NCBI RefSeq assembly: GCF_022374935.2
Contig: NZ_CP092430.2
Span: 2,294,001-2,358,000 of the forward strand
Origin: Mycolicibacter virginiensis
GTDB taxonomy: Bacteria; Actinomycetota; Actinomycetes; Mycobacteriales; Mycobacteriaceae
Reading direction: 5' to 3'
DNA: 64,000 nt
The notes beneath the pieces are model-generated. The model had not been told where the DNA came from. It was given only the letters and a program-made list of their open reading frames with translations, and ran no database searches. The translations under genes were made by a program, and so were the position numbers. Below, in pieces: positions 46,663 through 52,083 of this stretch. Every line of letters begins with the position of its first letter. Position 1 is the stretch's first letter.

Positions 46663-47298
46663 TCATTCGGTCAGACGCTCGCGGACACCGGCATCGGCGG
46701 AGTAGCGCACCAGGGCTGCAGCCAGTTCGGCATTGCGTCCCTGCGACAGTGCGCCGAGTTGTTTCGCGTCACTGGGCAAGCCGAGATCGCGCGCGGCATC
46801 CAGGGCGCGGTCGTCGAACGTGGAGCGGGCCCAGGGCCAGACGTCCTGGACCTCACGGAGAAAGATGCTCGCACCCACATCACCGATTCCCTTGAAGGAC
46901 GTCAGTGCCTCGGCGGCCGCCGCGATATCGCGTCCGCTGCGTTCCGCCAGCAGCCGGAGATCACCGCCATAGTCCGACTGCACCGCCTCGGCCAATTCGA
47001 CCAGCATGGTGGCTGAGCTCTCGTCGTAGCGGCGGTAGTGCGCCCGGCCCATCGCATCGATCAGCGTTTGTCGATCGGCTTCGAGCACCTTGTGCGGCGT
47101 GCGCAACCCGCACTTGAACAGCTCGCGGGCGGCGCGGGCCGCGATGCTGGAGTCGATGGGCTTGCTGGCCAGCATGCACAGCATCAACAACTGGAACAGC
47201 GGCATGGGTTGGTTGCGCAACCGGATTCCGGCCTCTTGGGCATAGGTCGTACCCGCACGCCGCAGCAGTCGGCGTACCAGTTCCTTGTGGGCAATCAC
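46663..47298 (-). CDS. Endonuclease III-like HhH-GPD family protein (Rv1870c-like)
   Basis: A 211-residue helical protein with a helix-hairpin-helix-like segment ALTSFKGIGDVGASIFLREV and a following aspartate region STFDDRALDAA, arranged as in HhH-GPD DNA glycosylases, but without the cysteine cluster of endonuclease III. The length equals that recalled for Rv1870c. A base-excision role is a fold-level inference; no catalytic lysine at the glycosylase/lyase position is evident. Separated by 63 bases from the RyR-domain gene. Confidence 0.75.
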   Translation of the reverse strand: MIAHKELVRRLLRRAGTTYAQEAGIRLRNQPMPLFQLLMLCMLASKPIDSSIAARAARELFKCGLRTPHKVLEADRQTLIDAMGRAHYRRYDESSATMLVELAEAVQSDYGGDLRLLAERSGRDIAAAAEALTSFKGIGDVGASIFLREVQDVWPWARSTFDDRALDAARDLGLPSDAKQLGALSQGRNAELAAALVRYSADAGVRERLTE

Positions 47299-47361: not shown

Positions 47362-49176
47362 CTAGTGCGAAAGGCTGCGCGCCGGATATCTCGGTGCGGT
47401 CTGCGCTACGTCGATGATCTCCAGGCCGACAGCCGCCAGCATCTCCGGGATCGCCCGCACGAAGATCCGGTCGACCTCGGCGACCTCGGGTGGCAATTGC
47501 TCCATCGGCACCAAGTGCGGGTCCTTCTTGAGCACCGGGTCCTCGTCGCCCAGAGTCCAGCCGGCGTCGAGCTTCTCCTGCATCCACCGGTCGTGCTCCA
47601 TGGTGCCCAGCTTGTCCATCTCGTCGTCGGTGAACTGGAAGTCGCGGGCATGCCAGTTGCGCAGTGGAGCGATCACGCAGCCGATGCTGCGCAGCTTCAC
47701 CCCGATGTGGCGGGCCTGGGCACGGCTGGAGTCCTTGAGCGCATCCGCCAACTCCGGCCAGGGCGGCGGCGCCGGCGCGCCCGCGGGTTGCATCAGGCAG
47801 TAGCGCCGGTGGATCTCGTGGGCAACGGCCTCCAGTGATCCGCCCTCGACGAGCTCAACGGTGCAGGTCTCCTGCAGGGTCCGGAAGACCGTGACACCGG
47901 AGCCGCCGAGCGCCTGCTCCTCGAGCAGGTCGGCCACACCGTAGGCGCGTGAGATTGTCGTGACCACCGGCACCGCGTTGTCGAGCGCGCGGCGCAGGTT
48001 CAACGCCGACTCGACGTTGCGTTCGTCGTGATAACCGGTCACATAGGCCTGGGTAACCGGCCAGTCGGTGTCCTGCGCCACCCGATCGATGTCGCGTACC
48101 GAGGCGGGCGAGCAGTGGAATTCGCAGACTTCCTCGAGGGCGGGGTGGTTGGACACCAGCTTGGCCACCTTGGCCGCGGCCTGGTCGTCGATCACGGTCA
48201 CCCGCAGTGGTTGGTCGTCCACGCGTTCTTCGTGCCATTGGCGGGCTGCCTGAAACACCAAACCCGATCCGACACCGTCAAGGTGGGCGACGGCGATGTG
48301 GGGACGCTGCACGATCGTCACCGGATGTTCGGCTAGCAGCAGCCGAGCGCCGACGGTGTCGATGTTGAAGAAGTCGACGGCCAACCGGTCATCGCCGCGA
48401 TTGAACTCCGCGAGTCGTAACAGCACGCACAACCCGGGGTCCTCAATGCGCGCCAGGCAGCGCAAGTGGTCTTTGCTCGAGCGCCCGAAGATCCTGCGTG
48501 AACTCTTGGAGTCATCGGCCAGACGGCGTGCCAGCGTGACGATTTCGGTGTTGGCAACGCTGTCTGAAGTCACCGCGAGCAGCCGGGCTGCGCGCCGTAC
48601 TCCCGCTGATTCAAGGGTCGCGCTGAGCTGGGCATCTCCGATGACGACCGGGAATCCCCAGTTGCGGCAAGTCTTGATTCGAGGGTTGGCCTCGTCGGAC
48701 TCGATCACAACGGCCCGGTATCCCGCGGCACGGAGCTCGCGGACGAACTCAAACCCGGCGTAGCCCAGACCGCAGACCACCACATGCCCGTGCTTGAACG
48801 GGATAAGCAGTTGCTGCACCCGGTCCCGAAACATCGACACCAGTGCTATGAGCGCCGCCCAGCCGGCTACCACCGGTGCCAGGAAGCGTGCGATGTCCAG
48901 GGCCGGGCCGACATGGTTCTCCGGTTGCGGAGCCGCGTGCAGGAAGAACAACTTGACCGCGCCATAGACCGCGTCGGAGTACGAATGCTCGCCGCCCTGA
49001 TAGGAGCCGTAGCCCCAGAACCCCAGCGCGAAGGCAACGATCCCCGCCGGGATCAGCAGCCAGTACCAGTGTGGATCAGTCAGTCCGGTCAGCACCTTGT
49101 GCTGCAGGGTCTCCGGCGGCGGGGCTTCGCGCCCGGGCTTGGCCGGAGCACTCGGTTCGGCCGCACGACCGGTCAT
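47362..49176 (-). CDS. Membrane protein with two TrkA-N/RCK-like domains and a C-terminal RyR domain
   Basis: A 604-residue protein. Disordered N-terminus, membrane helix 37-57 (WYWLLIPAGIVAFALGFWG), a hydrophobic segment 66-80, helix 94-115 (RFLAPVVAGWAALIALV), then a Rossmann TrkA-N/RCK domain (HVVVCGLGYAGFEF, G136-G138-G141, acidic D161), a second Rossmann-like domain (LRVTVIDDQAAAKVAKLV), and a RyR-type repeat at about 520-585 (MEHDRWMQEKLDAGWTLGD, then DPHLVPMEQLPPEVAEVDR). The layout recalls two-helix potassium channels, but no TVGYG filter is seen between the helices. GGGAGG sits 8 bases before the ATG at 49176. Divergent from the TIR gene, sharing a 170-base control region. I recall no H37Rv counterpart. 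Confidence 0.85.
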   Translation of the reverse strand: MTGRAAEPSAPAKPGREAPPPETLQHKVLTGLTDPHWYWLLIPAGIVAFALGFWGYGSYQGGEHSYSDAVYGAVKLFFLHAAPQPENHVGPALDIARFLAPVVAGWAALIALVSMFRDRVQQLLIPFKHGHVVVCGLGYAGFEFVRELRAAGYRAVVIESDEANPRIKTCRNWGFPVVIGDAQLSATLESAGVRRAARLLAVTSDSVANTEIVTLARRLADDSKSSRRIFGRSSKDHLRCLARIEDPGLCVLLRLAEFNRGDDRLAVDFFNIDTVGARLLLAEHPVTIVQRPHIAVAHLDGVGSGLVFQAARQWHEERVDDQPLRVTVIDDQAAAKVAKLVSNHPALEEVCEFHCSPASVRDIDRVAQDTDWPVTQAYVTGYHDERNVESALNLRRALDNAVPVVTTISRAYGVADLLEEQALGGSGVTVFRTLQETCTVELVEGGSLEAVAHEIHRRYCLMQPAGAPAPPPWPELADALKDSSRAQARHIGVKLRSIGCVIAPLRNWHARDFQFTDDEMDKLGTMEHDRWMQEKLDAGWTLGDEDPVLKKDPHLVPMEQLPPEVAEVDRIFVRAIPEMLAAVGLEIIDVAQTAPRYPARSLSH

Positions 49177-49246
49177 CGGCGTTTCTCCTCCCGCGCTTTC
49201 TTTGCTGGGCCTGCTCGGCCCATCGCAAAAGCGCTCTGTTCTCTCG

Positions 49247-49253
49247 TACACTA
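49247..49253. promoter_or_regulatory. Candidate overlapping -10 boxes for the divergent TIR and RyR genes
   Basis: TACACTA reads TACACT forward (TANNNT) and TAGTGT on the minus strand, so one 7-base element could serve both directions. Leaders would be about 90 bases toward the TIR gene and about 65 toward the RyR gene. Confidence 0.3.
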
Positions 49254-49270
49254 ACCCGGACGCAGGACGA

Positions 49271-49280
49271 CCGATATCGG
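49271..49280. promoter_or_regulatory. Perfect palindrome CCGATATCGG, possible operator
   Basis: A 10-base perfect palindrome about 20 bases from the candidate shared -10 element. It would cover the -35 region of the minus-strand promoter. No regulator gene is adjacent. Confidence 0.3.
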
Positions 49281-49346
49281 CCTTCAGTCTGACAAACTGG
49301 AGAGCAATTCGGTCCGCTTCTGCGCATGCCGGCCCTGGAGAGGATC

Positions 49347-50828
49347 ATGCTGTTTGTCAGTTACGCCAGCCAGGATCGCGCGTTGGTCGATCCGCTGGTT
49401 TCCGTCCTGCGCAGCGCCGACCAGCACGTGTGGCTGGACGAAGAACTGGGCGGTGGCGAGGCGTGGTGGCAGACAATCCTGGACCGGATCCGGTGTTGCT
49501 CGGTGTTCGTCGTCGCGTTGTCCAACAACTCATTGCGGTCCAAGCCTTGTCAGGCGGAGTTGGCCTATGCGCGGGCGCTGCAACGCCCGGTTCTGCCGGT
49601 GCAGATCGGCCCGGTCGACAGTGTGCGTGTCACCCCACTGGCCGCGACCCAGGTCATCGACTACCGGATGCGTGACGCCGCCGCCCACGCTCGATTGGTC
49701 GCCGCCCTGCAGAGCCTGTCGCGCCGTGCCGTACCGCTGCCTGCACAGTTGCCGGAGGAACCAATGGTGCCCTTCGCCTACCTGATGCGGCTTTCCTCGG
49801 AGCTGTCGGGACCCGAGCTGAGCTACCACAAGCAGGGCGAACTCCTCTTGGAGCTTCGGTCGCGGCTCGACGAGGACTGTCACGATCCCACCGTCCGCAA
49901 TGACATCGTCCAGCTCCTGTGCCGGTTGCGTGACCGGCCGGACGTCACCGTGCGAACCCGAGCCGACGTCGACGCGGTTCTGGCCGCTAACGACCCGAGC
50001 TTCACTGCCGCTACCGTCGGCATGCCGGTCGCCGCGGTAACCGGGCCGCGGCCCGTGATCACCCGCCCGGCGCCCGACGTAGCGCGGGCCGGTACGGACG
50101 GTTCGGATCGCGTTGACGCCGACCCGCGGCATCGGGGTGGACCGGTGAAGAAGCTGCTGCTCGCCGGCGCCGCCGTGGCGGTGGCGGTGGCCGGTGCGCT
50201 GGCATTCGGACTCACCCGCACGCCACCCGAGTTGCCGACACCGAACCTGGCCGCTGACGATGACGTACAGGCCGTAATGGCAACCCCCGCAATGGAGACC
50301 GTGCAGGCCGACCTCGAAGCGCTCAAGCCGGCCGGATCAATAGCGGCGTCAGAGCCGGAATGCCTGGGTGTTCTGTACCCGGGCTTGGACTCGGATTACC
50401 GGGACACTCAGGTCCAGCGGGCGGCGTGGAAGGTGCTGGAAGAACCGGGCGGCCTGCAACGGGCCGGCGTCAACGGCCGGCCTTTCGTGGACCAGGACAT
50501 TGTGGCCTTCGCCCCGAACTCCGGGCGGGCTGCGGCTTTCGTCGAGCAGTCGGTGGCGCGGTGGCAGGCCTGTGCGGGCAAGACGGTCACCGTGACCTAT
50601 CCCGACCACAACACCTACACCTGGACTATCGGGGACACCGTCGGTGGCGCACCGCGGATCTCGCAGACCTACACCCTGGGCTCCGAGGCATACAGCTGCC
50701 AGCGGGTGCTCAATGCGGTAGCTGACACGGTGATCGACGTCAAAGCCTGCGGCGCGCACATCACCGACGAGGCGGATGCGCTCAACGACGTGATCGCCGC
50801 GCTGGTGACGCGGGCTCCCGCGTTCTGA
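49347..50828 (+). CDS. TIR domain protein with transmembrane helix and PknH-type sensor domain
   Basis: A 493-residue protein with an unusual architecture. Residues 1-125: a TIR domain of the TIR_2 type (MLFVSYASQDRALVDPLV, then GGGEAWWQTILDRI, VVALSNNSL, and CQAELAYARAL with E71 as the candidate NADase glutamate). Residues 135-265: helical and disordered linker. Residues 268-290: membrane helix [20 protein letters not shown]. Residues 291-493: an extracytoplasmic domain with four cysteines (PECLG, WQACAGK, YSCQRVL, VKACGA) matching the PknH C-terminal/LpqQ-type sensor fold. GGAG at 49337-49340 supports the ATG at 49347; ATG 49326 is the alternative. Convergent with lldD2. Confidence 0.87.
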   Translation: MLFVSYASQDRALVDPLVSVLRSADQHVWLDEELGGGEAWWQTILDRIRCCSVFVVALSNNSLRSKPCQAELAYARALQRPVLPVQIGPVDSVRVTPLAATQVIDYRMRDAAAHARLVAALQSLSRRAVPLPAQLPEEPMVPFAYLMRLSSELSGPELSYHKQGELLLELRSRLDEDCHDPTVRNDIVQLLCRLRDRPDVTVRTRADVDAVLAANDPSFTAATVGMPVAAVTGPRPVITRPAPDVARAGTDGSDRVDADPRHRGGPVKKLLLAGAAVAVAVAGALAFGLTRTPPELPTPNLAADDDVQAVMATPAMETVQADLEALKPAGSIAASEPECLGVLYPGLDSDYRDTQVQRAAWKVLEEPGGLQRAGVNGRPFVDQDIVAFAPNSGRAAAFVEQSVARWQACAGKTVTVTYPDHNTYTWTIGDTVGGAPRISQTYTLGSEAYSCQRVLNAVADTVIDVKACGAHITDEADALNDVIAALVTRAPAF

Positions 50829-50844
50829 GCGAAGTACGCAACCG

Positions 50845-52083
50845 CTACCGGCGCGGCACCAGTCGCTGTAGCTGGGTGACATGCTGTGGTGTCAGTTCAG
50901 CGAGTTCGCTGACCCCGAGCAACCGCATGGTGCGCCGGATCTGTTCGGCGAGGATTTCGATCACGCGGTGCACACCGGCCTGCCCACCGGCCATCAGGCC
51001 ATAGAGGTAGGCCCGGCCGATCAGGGTGCAGCGGGCACCCAGCGCGACCGCTGCCACGATGTCGGCGCCCGACATGATGCCGGTGTCCAGCAGGATCTCG
51101 GTGTCGGCCCCGACCTCGCGCACCACTTCGGGCAACAGCTGGAACGGCACCGGCGCTCGATCGAGCTGGCGGCCGCCATGGTTGGACAACACGATGCCGT
51201 CCACACCGCGATCGACCACCGCGCGGGCATCGTCGAGGCTCTGGATGCCTTTTACGACGAATCGGCCCGGCCATTGTGACTTGACCCAGGCCAGATCGTC
51301 GAAGGTGAGGCTCGGATCGAACATGGTGTCCATGTACTGCGCGACGGTGCCCGACCATCGGTCCAGCGACGCAAAGGACAACGGTTCAGTGGTGAGCAGG
51401 TCGAACCACCAGGCCGGATGCACCGCGGCATCGGCGACCGTGCGCAGCGTCAGCGCCGGTGGGATGGACATGCCGTTGCGGGAGTCGCGTCGCCGCGCTC
51501 CGGCGACCGGACAGTCGACGGTGGCCAGCAGGGTGTCGTAGCCGGCTTCGGCGGCGCGGCGCAGCAGCGCCATCGACCGGTCGCGGTCATGCCACATGTA
51601 CAGCTGAAACCAGCGGCGGGCCCCGGGGGCGGCCGCCGCGACATCTTCGATCGAGGCGGTGCCCAAGGTCGACAGCGCGAACGGGATACCGGCGGCCTCG
51701 GCGGCGCGGGCGCCGGCCAGCTCGCCCGCGGTGTGCATCAGCCGGGTGAAGCCGGTCGGTGCGATCGCGAACGGCAACGCCACCGGCGCGCCGAGCACCT
51801 CGCGGCTGGTGTCGACCTTCGAGACATCGCGCAGGATGGCCGGATGAAACTCGATGTCCCGGAAGGCCTGTCGGGCTCGTTCCAGCGAGATCTCGTCTTC
51901 GGCGGCGCCGTCGGTGTAGTCGAAGGCGGCTCGGGGGGTGCGTCGTTTGGCGAGCAGACGTAGGTCTTCGACGGTCAATGCGGTCTCAAGCCGGCGCGCG
52001 GTGCGATTCAATCGTGGCCTGCGGAAACGGATCAGTGGCGCAAGTTCACCGATCCTGGGAACCCGTCGCTTGATCGCCGACAT
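50845..52083 (-). CDS. lldD2: FMN-dependent L-lactate dehydrogenase (quinone)
   Basis: A 412-residue alpha-hydroxy-acid oxidase family enzyme that oxidises L-lactate to pyruvate and feeds the respiratory chain. FMN-barrel motifs [42 protein letters not shown], the catalytic [12 protein letters not shown] and [20 protein letters not shown] are intact. Matches Rv1872c, reported essential for growth on lactate. AAGGAG precedes the ATG. It follows the TIR gene tail-to-tail with 16 bases between. Confidence 0.95.

Follow-up and report, generated by a model that had tools for sequence, protein, structure and literature searches.

Linked genes for a TIR-PknH_C protein and a RyR/RCK membrane protein in Mycolicibacter virginiensis and its relatives: a candidate signalling pair

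ThsA, the effector of the Thoeris system, is a SIR2-SLOG or Macro-TM (transmembrane) protein. Phage proteins carrying a RyR domain have been reported to bind or cleave the TIR signals 2'- and 3'-cyclic ADP-ribose (2'cADPR/3'cADPR), according to a May 2026 preprint (PMC13232231). The mycobacteriophage protein RyDEP is described there as a glycosidase that cleaves 2'/3'cADPR and holds its ligand through H75, W78, H100 and D117, with H100 binding phosphate; six of eight tested RyDEP homologues formed a stable complex with 2'/3'cADPR, the other homologues tested did not cleave it, and two homologues were characterised as sponges (PMC13232231). For the mycobacterial sensor domain of PknH, another paper describes two disulfides and a cleft suggested as a small-molecule binding site (PMC3601408). 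Here we analyse a locus of Mycolicibacter virginiensis in which these domain types meet. The window, a 64,000-nucleotide stretch of contig NZ_CP092430.2 (positions 2,294,001 to 2,358,000), contains a RyR/RCK membrane protein gene on the minus strand and a TIR-PknH_C gene on the plus strand that diverge from a gap of 170 bases. This arrangement had been claimed in an earlier reading made from the DNA letters without database searches (the sequence-only reading), and open reading frames (ORFs), Pfam and AlphaFold confirm it.

Because the two genes stay together across related species, they probably form an unrecognised signalling pair, one that is possibly directed against phage. The best explanation, in which we place middling confidence, is a two-gene module in which an ADP-ribose-type signal would be made by the TIR protein and read by the RyR/RCK membrane effector. 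The observations behind it are the domains and folds of the two proteins, their conserved candidate active-site and ligand residues, and a very strong linkage of the genes within the genus.

Linkage of RyR and TIR genes across the genus

Within a sample of 148 genomes of the GTDB genus, the RyR family (PF02026) gave 69 listed matches in 60 genomes, and the TIR_2 family (PF13676) matched at least 79 genomes, with 150 listed matches used for the distance counts. At least 63 of the 69 RyR matches have a listed TIR match within 8 kb, a distance that is not the same as adjacency (three genes separate TIR and RyR in L211), and at least 55 have one within 5 kb. Random placement, calculated with rounded genome sizes, would give 0.45 of 69, and chance adjacency is thereby ruled out. 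By nearest listed TIR match, the gene order is tandem in 39 cases, convergent in 16 and divergent in 8. At least 59 of the 60 RyR-bearing genomes are also among those with a listed TIR match, and in each of five further loci of the genus (L237-L241) the retrieved sequence contains a TIR. Six RyR matches fall outside the 8-kb limit: one in G120, whose nearest listed TIR lies 28.9 kb away, two in G147, and one each in G032, G041 and G088. G147, G032 and G041 have fragmented assemblies with no listed TIR on the same contig, and in G088 remnants of the TIR-class and RyR genes adjoin each other.

By hand-picked assignment, the nearest listed TIR belongs to the TIR-PknH_C class in 40 of the 63 cases and not in the other 23, of which 13 have frames of about 1400 amino acids (aa). 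All five of the ~1400-aa TIR proteins near RyR genes that were tested contain nSTAND1 and WD40 domains. This modularity, with RyR proteins of the same class found near TIR-nSTAND1-WD40 proteins, counts in favour of the two-gene module. Seen from the TIR side, 40 of the 45 TIR-PknH_C-class matches in the sample have a RyR neighbour, the 45 including a few without an intact sensor (e.g. G107 and G142:C1:3295445); those without such a neighbour are G147:C9, G147:C345, G109:C1:2292696, G142:C1:3295445 and G043:C182.

A second set, of named loci, is partly the same as the genus sample and hence not independent of it: the best 80 of 98 relatives found were kept, in 78 loci. The TIR-PknH_C class accounts for 53 loci (L122-L174), of which L154 and L168 are without part of the sensor and L126 is cut at a contig end. 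The RyR/RCK gene adjoins the TIR-PknH_C gene in 48 of these 53, in divergent, tandem or convergent order. On both counts, the co-occurrence outside this strain on which the sequence-only reading had staked its claim was found.

The partners are of two kinds: type A, of about 600 aa as in the window, and type B, mostly of about 780-830 aa with extra transmembrane segments, a RyR domain and a PGDYG-like end. At L110:4926-9155, one contig carries RyR genes of both types next to each other. In a TIR tree of 54 rows, the partner is type A in 16, type B in 33 and none in 5, and four divergent type B rows form a clade that is placed, with strong support, inside type A. This tree requires three changes of the partner label for A and three for B, two of the latter being forced by well-supported branches; adjacency has therefore outlasted changes of order, place and partner kind. 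This bears on the view that adjacency merely reflects common descent and that the two genes have no functional connection. The linked genomes are indeed related, all within one GTDB genus, their counts are not independent, and the RyR-TIR link is weak outside the genus. However, adjacency has survived changes in the orientation and place of the genes, in the type of RyR partner and in the type of TIR sensor, and it far exceeds the 0.45 of 69 given by random placement, and we hold this explanation to be very improbable.

Domains and candidate ligand residues of the two proteins

Fold prediction and fold matches uphold both the TIR and the RyR domain assigned in the sequence-only reading. The N-terminal domain of the 493-aa protein has the TIR fold (PF13676), and its E71, present in 121 of 121 rows, falls in the same column as the Glu of AbTIR and Cat1, which we take to be catalytic in these NADase TIRs. 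Judged from this conservation, NAD+ cleavage and signal production are putative activities of the domain. Behind the transmembrane segment stand a PknH_C fold and its Cys pairs, as in a PknH-type sensor, with all four ectodomain Cys kept in 121 of 121 rows. The PknH-like domain also gives fold matches to TiME. Elsewhere (L106, L107), the TIR domain and helical linker head proteins of about 1345 aa without a PknH sensor match, and decayed remnants of the TIR-PknH_C class were seen in L183, G114, G074 and G088, Mycobacterium lepromatosis included.

The 604-aa partner was modelled by AlphaFold with a mean pLDDT (predicted local distance difference test) of 80.2 and a pTM (predicted template modelling score) of 0.74. 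It scores 34 bits against PF02026 (cut-off 27.4), and a fold search with the model returned matches of the GsuK/MthK/CASTOR type. An order of transmembrane helix, pore-like helix and transmembrane helix followed by RCK was found both in the model and in a profile alignment to the two-transmembrane (2TM) channels L242 and L243. In 26 of 118 rows the N-terminal region contains a string of the form G-Y/F/L-G; the ten listed each lie at the end of the first transmembrane segment (TM1), and given this position GYG strings were rejected as a selectivity filter.

Alignment confirmed the positions of H75, W78, H100 and D117 in the RyDEP sequence (gp78 of phage DyoEdafos) and places H528, W531 and D569 of the window protein at H75, W78 and D117. 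Across 121 type A rows (the window plus 120 listed of 232 homologues found), H528 and W531 are each kept in 121 of 121 and D569 in 116 of 121. Four type B proteins examined keep H75, W78 and H100 (His in 4 of 4) and have N, D, D and E in the D117 column. H554 was considered as the counterpart of H100 and dropped, the alignment placing D552 there. Since the counterparts of H75, W78 and D117 are kept but H100 is mostly replaced in type A, the ligand is probably of the ADP-ribose kind and may not be identical to that of RyDEP; cleavage by the window domain is not deducible from sequence.

The same residues bear on a reading of the pair as an off-switch, in which the TIR would be toxic, as an NADase or as a maker of signals, and its RyR partner would hydrolyse or soak up cyclic ADP-ribose, the partner's membrane part only positioning it beside the TIR protein. 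Both RyDEP catalytic residues have counterparts here (H528 and D569, at the frequencies above), RyDEP itself is a glycosidase with two sponge homologues (PMC13232231), and very tight linkage is also typical of toxin-antidote pairs. On the other hand, a sponge has no need of a tandem RCK gating-ring fold or a TM-helix-TM start, the D117 column varies among the four type B proteins, and 5 of the 53 TIR-PknH_C loci persist with no RyR partner found. We consider the off-switch unlikely.

Proposed mechanism, wider distribution and layout of the locus

For the preferred two-gene module, we propose the following route. The PknH-type ectodomain would bind an envelope or outside ligand, the presumed trigger, and the cytosolic TIR domains would cluster. 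TIR would then cleave NAD+ to yield an ADP-ribose-type signal, possibly 2'cADPR/3'cADPR or something closely related. This signal would be bound by the partner's RyR domain, and the partner's tandem RCK (gating-ring) domains would alter the 2TM pore-like membrane domain, so that a putative gating of ion flow might result. A cell under phage attack or envelope stress may then leak ions, stop growing or die. The sequence-only reading had proposed that the TIR protein makes a nucleotide that the RyR/RCK protein reads; the report that RyR domains bind or cleave 2'/3'cADPR (PMC13232231) lends this support, and the model stays an inference.

Besides the intervening genes at L211, several observations weigh against this module. 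A TVGYG-type K+ filter was not found in the window protein, which has FLHAAPQPE after the pore-like helix where K+ channels of the genus carry TVGYGD/TTGYGD, and AlphaFold modelled the transmembrane part at a pLDDT of about 50-66. Because the filter is missing and the membrane part has low pLDDT, a working pore is unproven. At the place of RyDEP H100 the window protein has D552, and only 3 of the 121 type A rows have a His. No RyR partner was found in 5 of the 53 named loci (L131, L138, L140, L147 and L154), L131 and L147 being short contigs. A TIR occurs in 3 of the 21 other RyR loci of the order (L216-L236) and in 2 of the 11 RyR loci of a phylum set that includes several short contigs (L200-L210), the latter count excluding a TIR match with an E-value of 8e-3 at the edge of L207. 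PADLOC gave no match for the RyR proteins of the window, of one Nocardia-like locus and of one type B locus, and no phage, plasmid or defence-database result puts the TIR-RyR pair in defence.

Because the link is weak outside the genus, RyR-RCK proteins are older, or more widely spread, than their pairing with TIR, and the idea that every RyR-RCK protein works with a TIR fails there (3 of 21 and 2 of 11 loci). A gene of about 170 aa without a Pfam match (one representative tested) lies in the neighbourhood of 12 of the 20 RyR loci L216-L235, and in some of L216-L231 a DUF4062-NACHT-HEAT or an AAA_16/BrxD-like protein (one representative each) stands beside the RyR-RCK gene; these three proteins are possible other sensor partners of RyR-RCK. 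Among further RyR architectures, a stand-alone 119-aa RyR frame from a different family of the order overlaps a frame of TIR - PNP_UDP-like type (L210:7929-10512), a 913-aa RyR-RCK homologue, perhaps a fusion, has protein-kinase domains in its Pfam list (P0025), and a RyR protein with TPR repeats has a weak SLOG/LSDAT-like match (L201:4032-6011).

The sequence-only reading had also suggested a cassette, on the view that the pair replaces Rv1871c between otherwise syntenic housekeeping genes; several results speak against a mobile defence cassette. Judged by gene size, similar neighbours recur around type B pairs in many species, as if the pairs had one fixed place; a plasmid collection searched with the RyR protein gave no match; and a pattern-based scan of viral contigs gave no RCK-RyR relative and two RyR-only matches. 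Six phage records match the RyR part only of the RyR/RCK protein, and a plasmid- or virus-borne cassette is thus unsupported. Relatives of RyDEP were seen on 11 viral contigs (L261-L271), one of them 99% identical.

These results fit a reading in which the pair serves envelope or osmotic-stress signalling and not defence, the PknH-type domain sensing an envelope small molecule and the pair tuning ion balance or dormancy. The small ligand suggested for the PknH sensor (PMC3601408) agrees with it. So do the RCK fold, which belongs to ion-control proteins, the type A pairs beside the same flanking genes in sister species, the type B neighbours of recurring size, and the plasmid and viral searches above. 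The STAND architecture, however, is typical of invader sensing, and the same class of RyR protein also has TIR-nSTAND1-WD40 proteins nearby. In addition, the mycobacteriophage RyR protein RyDEP destroys TIR signals (PMC13232231). Overall, we regard a pure stress role as somewhat unlikely.

A bolder form of the two-gene module, which we put forward tentatively, would make it a bacterial counterpart of the cADPR-to-ryanodine-receptor pathway. Cyclic ADP-ribose from an envelope TIR receptor would open a RyR-gated RCK-ring pore, outside (PknH_C) and inside (nSTAND1-WD40) sensors would be swapped on a constant TIR-RyR core, and phage RyDEP-type proteins would be decoys of this RyR domain of the host. 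If true, TIR signalling would gain an outside-facing receptor and a channel-like effector. With the pair there is a specific candidate for the host receptor of cADPR signals made by TIR proteins in mycobacteria, for which tools for easy Thoeris study do not exist (PMC13232231).

The coordinates of the locus are collected in Table 1. The CTCGTACACTAACCC block of the shared gap is invariant across 7 aligned divergent loci (Mycolicibacter), and since it holds a -10-like hexamer on each strand (TACACT on plus, TAGTGT on minus) a single two-way promoter common to both genes is likely. Its inner 13-mer occurs in 13 of 250 loci, every one a stretch of a divergent type A locus, and the 15-mer has one exact copy in its own genome (no mismatches allowed). 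That genome is a single contig of 4.98 Mb with one TIR_2 match in all, and the nearest relative of the TIR protein is that of Mycolicibacter heraklionensis (99% over 229 columns).

The left flanking gene is presumably Rv1870c-like and the right one, we assume, lldD2-like; in G129, the gene beside the TIR piece matches Pfam FMN_dh. Of these two flanking genes, both were recognised in four of the 7 divergent type A loci that are named (L122, L123, L127 and L128) and one in the other three (L124, L125 and L126); the tandem loci of M. kyorinense, M. koreensis and M. acidiphilus also have one. A 126-aa gene beside the M. kyorinense pair, a possible Rv1871c that would bear on the proposed replacement, gave matches, often strong ones, in 57 of 60 genomes; its best match in the window's own genome has an E-value of only 1.1e-5.

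Table 1. Features of the TIR-PknH_C and RyR/RCK locus, in window positions
Feature	Position	Strand	Basis
RyR/RCK membrane protein, 604 aa, type A	47362..49176	-	ORFs, Pfam TrkA_N + RyR, AlphaFold
Predicted TM1, residues 36-58	49003..49071	-	AlphaFold helix (pLDDT about 60), hydropathy
Pore-like helix, residues 66-78	48943..48981	-	AlphaFold, alignment to 2TM channels
Predicted TM2, residues 91-115	48832..48906	-	Hydropathy, AlphaFold
First Rossmann / TrkA_N (RCK) domain, GxGxxG kept	48496..48783	-	Pfam, AlphaFold, alignment
Second Rossmann domain, residues about 290-435	47872..48309	-	AlphaFold and fold match, no Pfam match
RyR domain (PF02026)	47416..47619	-	Pfam, alignment to RyDEP
TIR - linker - TM - PknH_C sensor protein, 493 aa	49347..50828	+	ORFs, Pfam, AlphaFold
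TIR domain (PF13676)	49353..49697	+	Profile match, alignment, fold match
Helical linker, residues 144-215, conserved in family	49776..49991	+	Alignment, model
Single predicted TM segment, residues 270-288	50154..50210	+	Hydropathy; model confidence low
PknH-like extracellular domain, four invariant Cys	50247..50801	+	Pfam, alignment, fold match
Divergent intergenic region, 170 bases	49177..49346	.	ORF calls
CTCGTACACTAACCC block	49243..49257	+	Alignment of divergent loci
Left flanking gene	46663..47298	-	ORF calls, locus comparison
Right flanking gene, FMN-dependent dehydrogenase	50845..52083	-	ORF calls, locus comparison

Comparison with known systems

No paper describing a TIR-RyR-TrkA or TIR-PknH pair was among the matches listed from open-licence literature. 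PMC9503650 has no mention of RyR, ryanodine, TrkA or RCK, ryanodine occurs in PMC8195603 in the reference list only, and in the main text of PMC13232231 the whole words potassium, TrkA and membrane are absent.

The working likeness to Thoeris is good, yet the pair is not a Thoeris member because its effector differs: it is a RyR/RCK membrane protein, on which no ThsA-type domain (SIR2-SLOG or Macro) was found in Pfam (E-value up to 1) or PADLOC (E-value up to 0.1). In addition, the TIR protein carries a PknH sensor outside the cell, and its signal and any role in phage defence are putative. With RyDEP and the phage anti-Thoeris RyR proteins (PF02026), the window protein shares a homologous RyR domain and the counterparts of H75, W78 and D117. 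It differs in being the product of a host gene beside a TIR gene, in the fusion of RyR to RCK and transmembrane parts, and in the replacement of H100 in type A, for which binding or cleavage is putative.

The model of the window protein suggests the 2TM-RCK-RCK fold of GsuK; unlike GsuK, MthK and CASTOR-DMI1, it is without the TVGYG filter and has an added C-terminal RyR domain, and any channel activity is putative. Compared with mycobacterial PknH-type receptor kinases, the cytosolic output of the pair is a TIR domain and not a Ser/Thr kinase. Finally, as a channel-type protein whose RyR domain faces the cytosol, the window protein recalls animal ryanodine receptors with their R12 domain, and the A2 profile matches the RyR1/2/3 chains, although the window protein is a small 2TM-RCK protein with a single RyR repeat. 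That R12 is linked to cADPR-type signals is a proposal of the preprint (PMC13232231). A bacterial module for sensing nucleotides may, we suggest, be the ancestor of the RyR R12 domain found in animal calcium channels, or its parallel.

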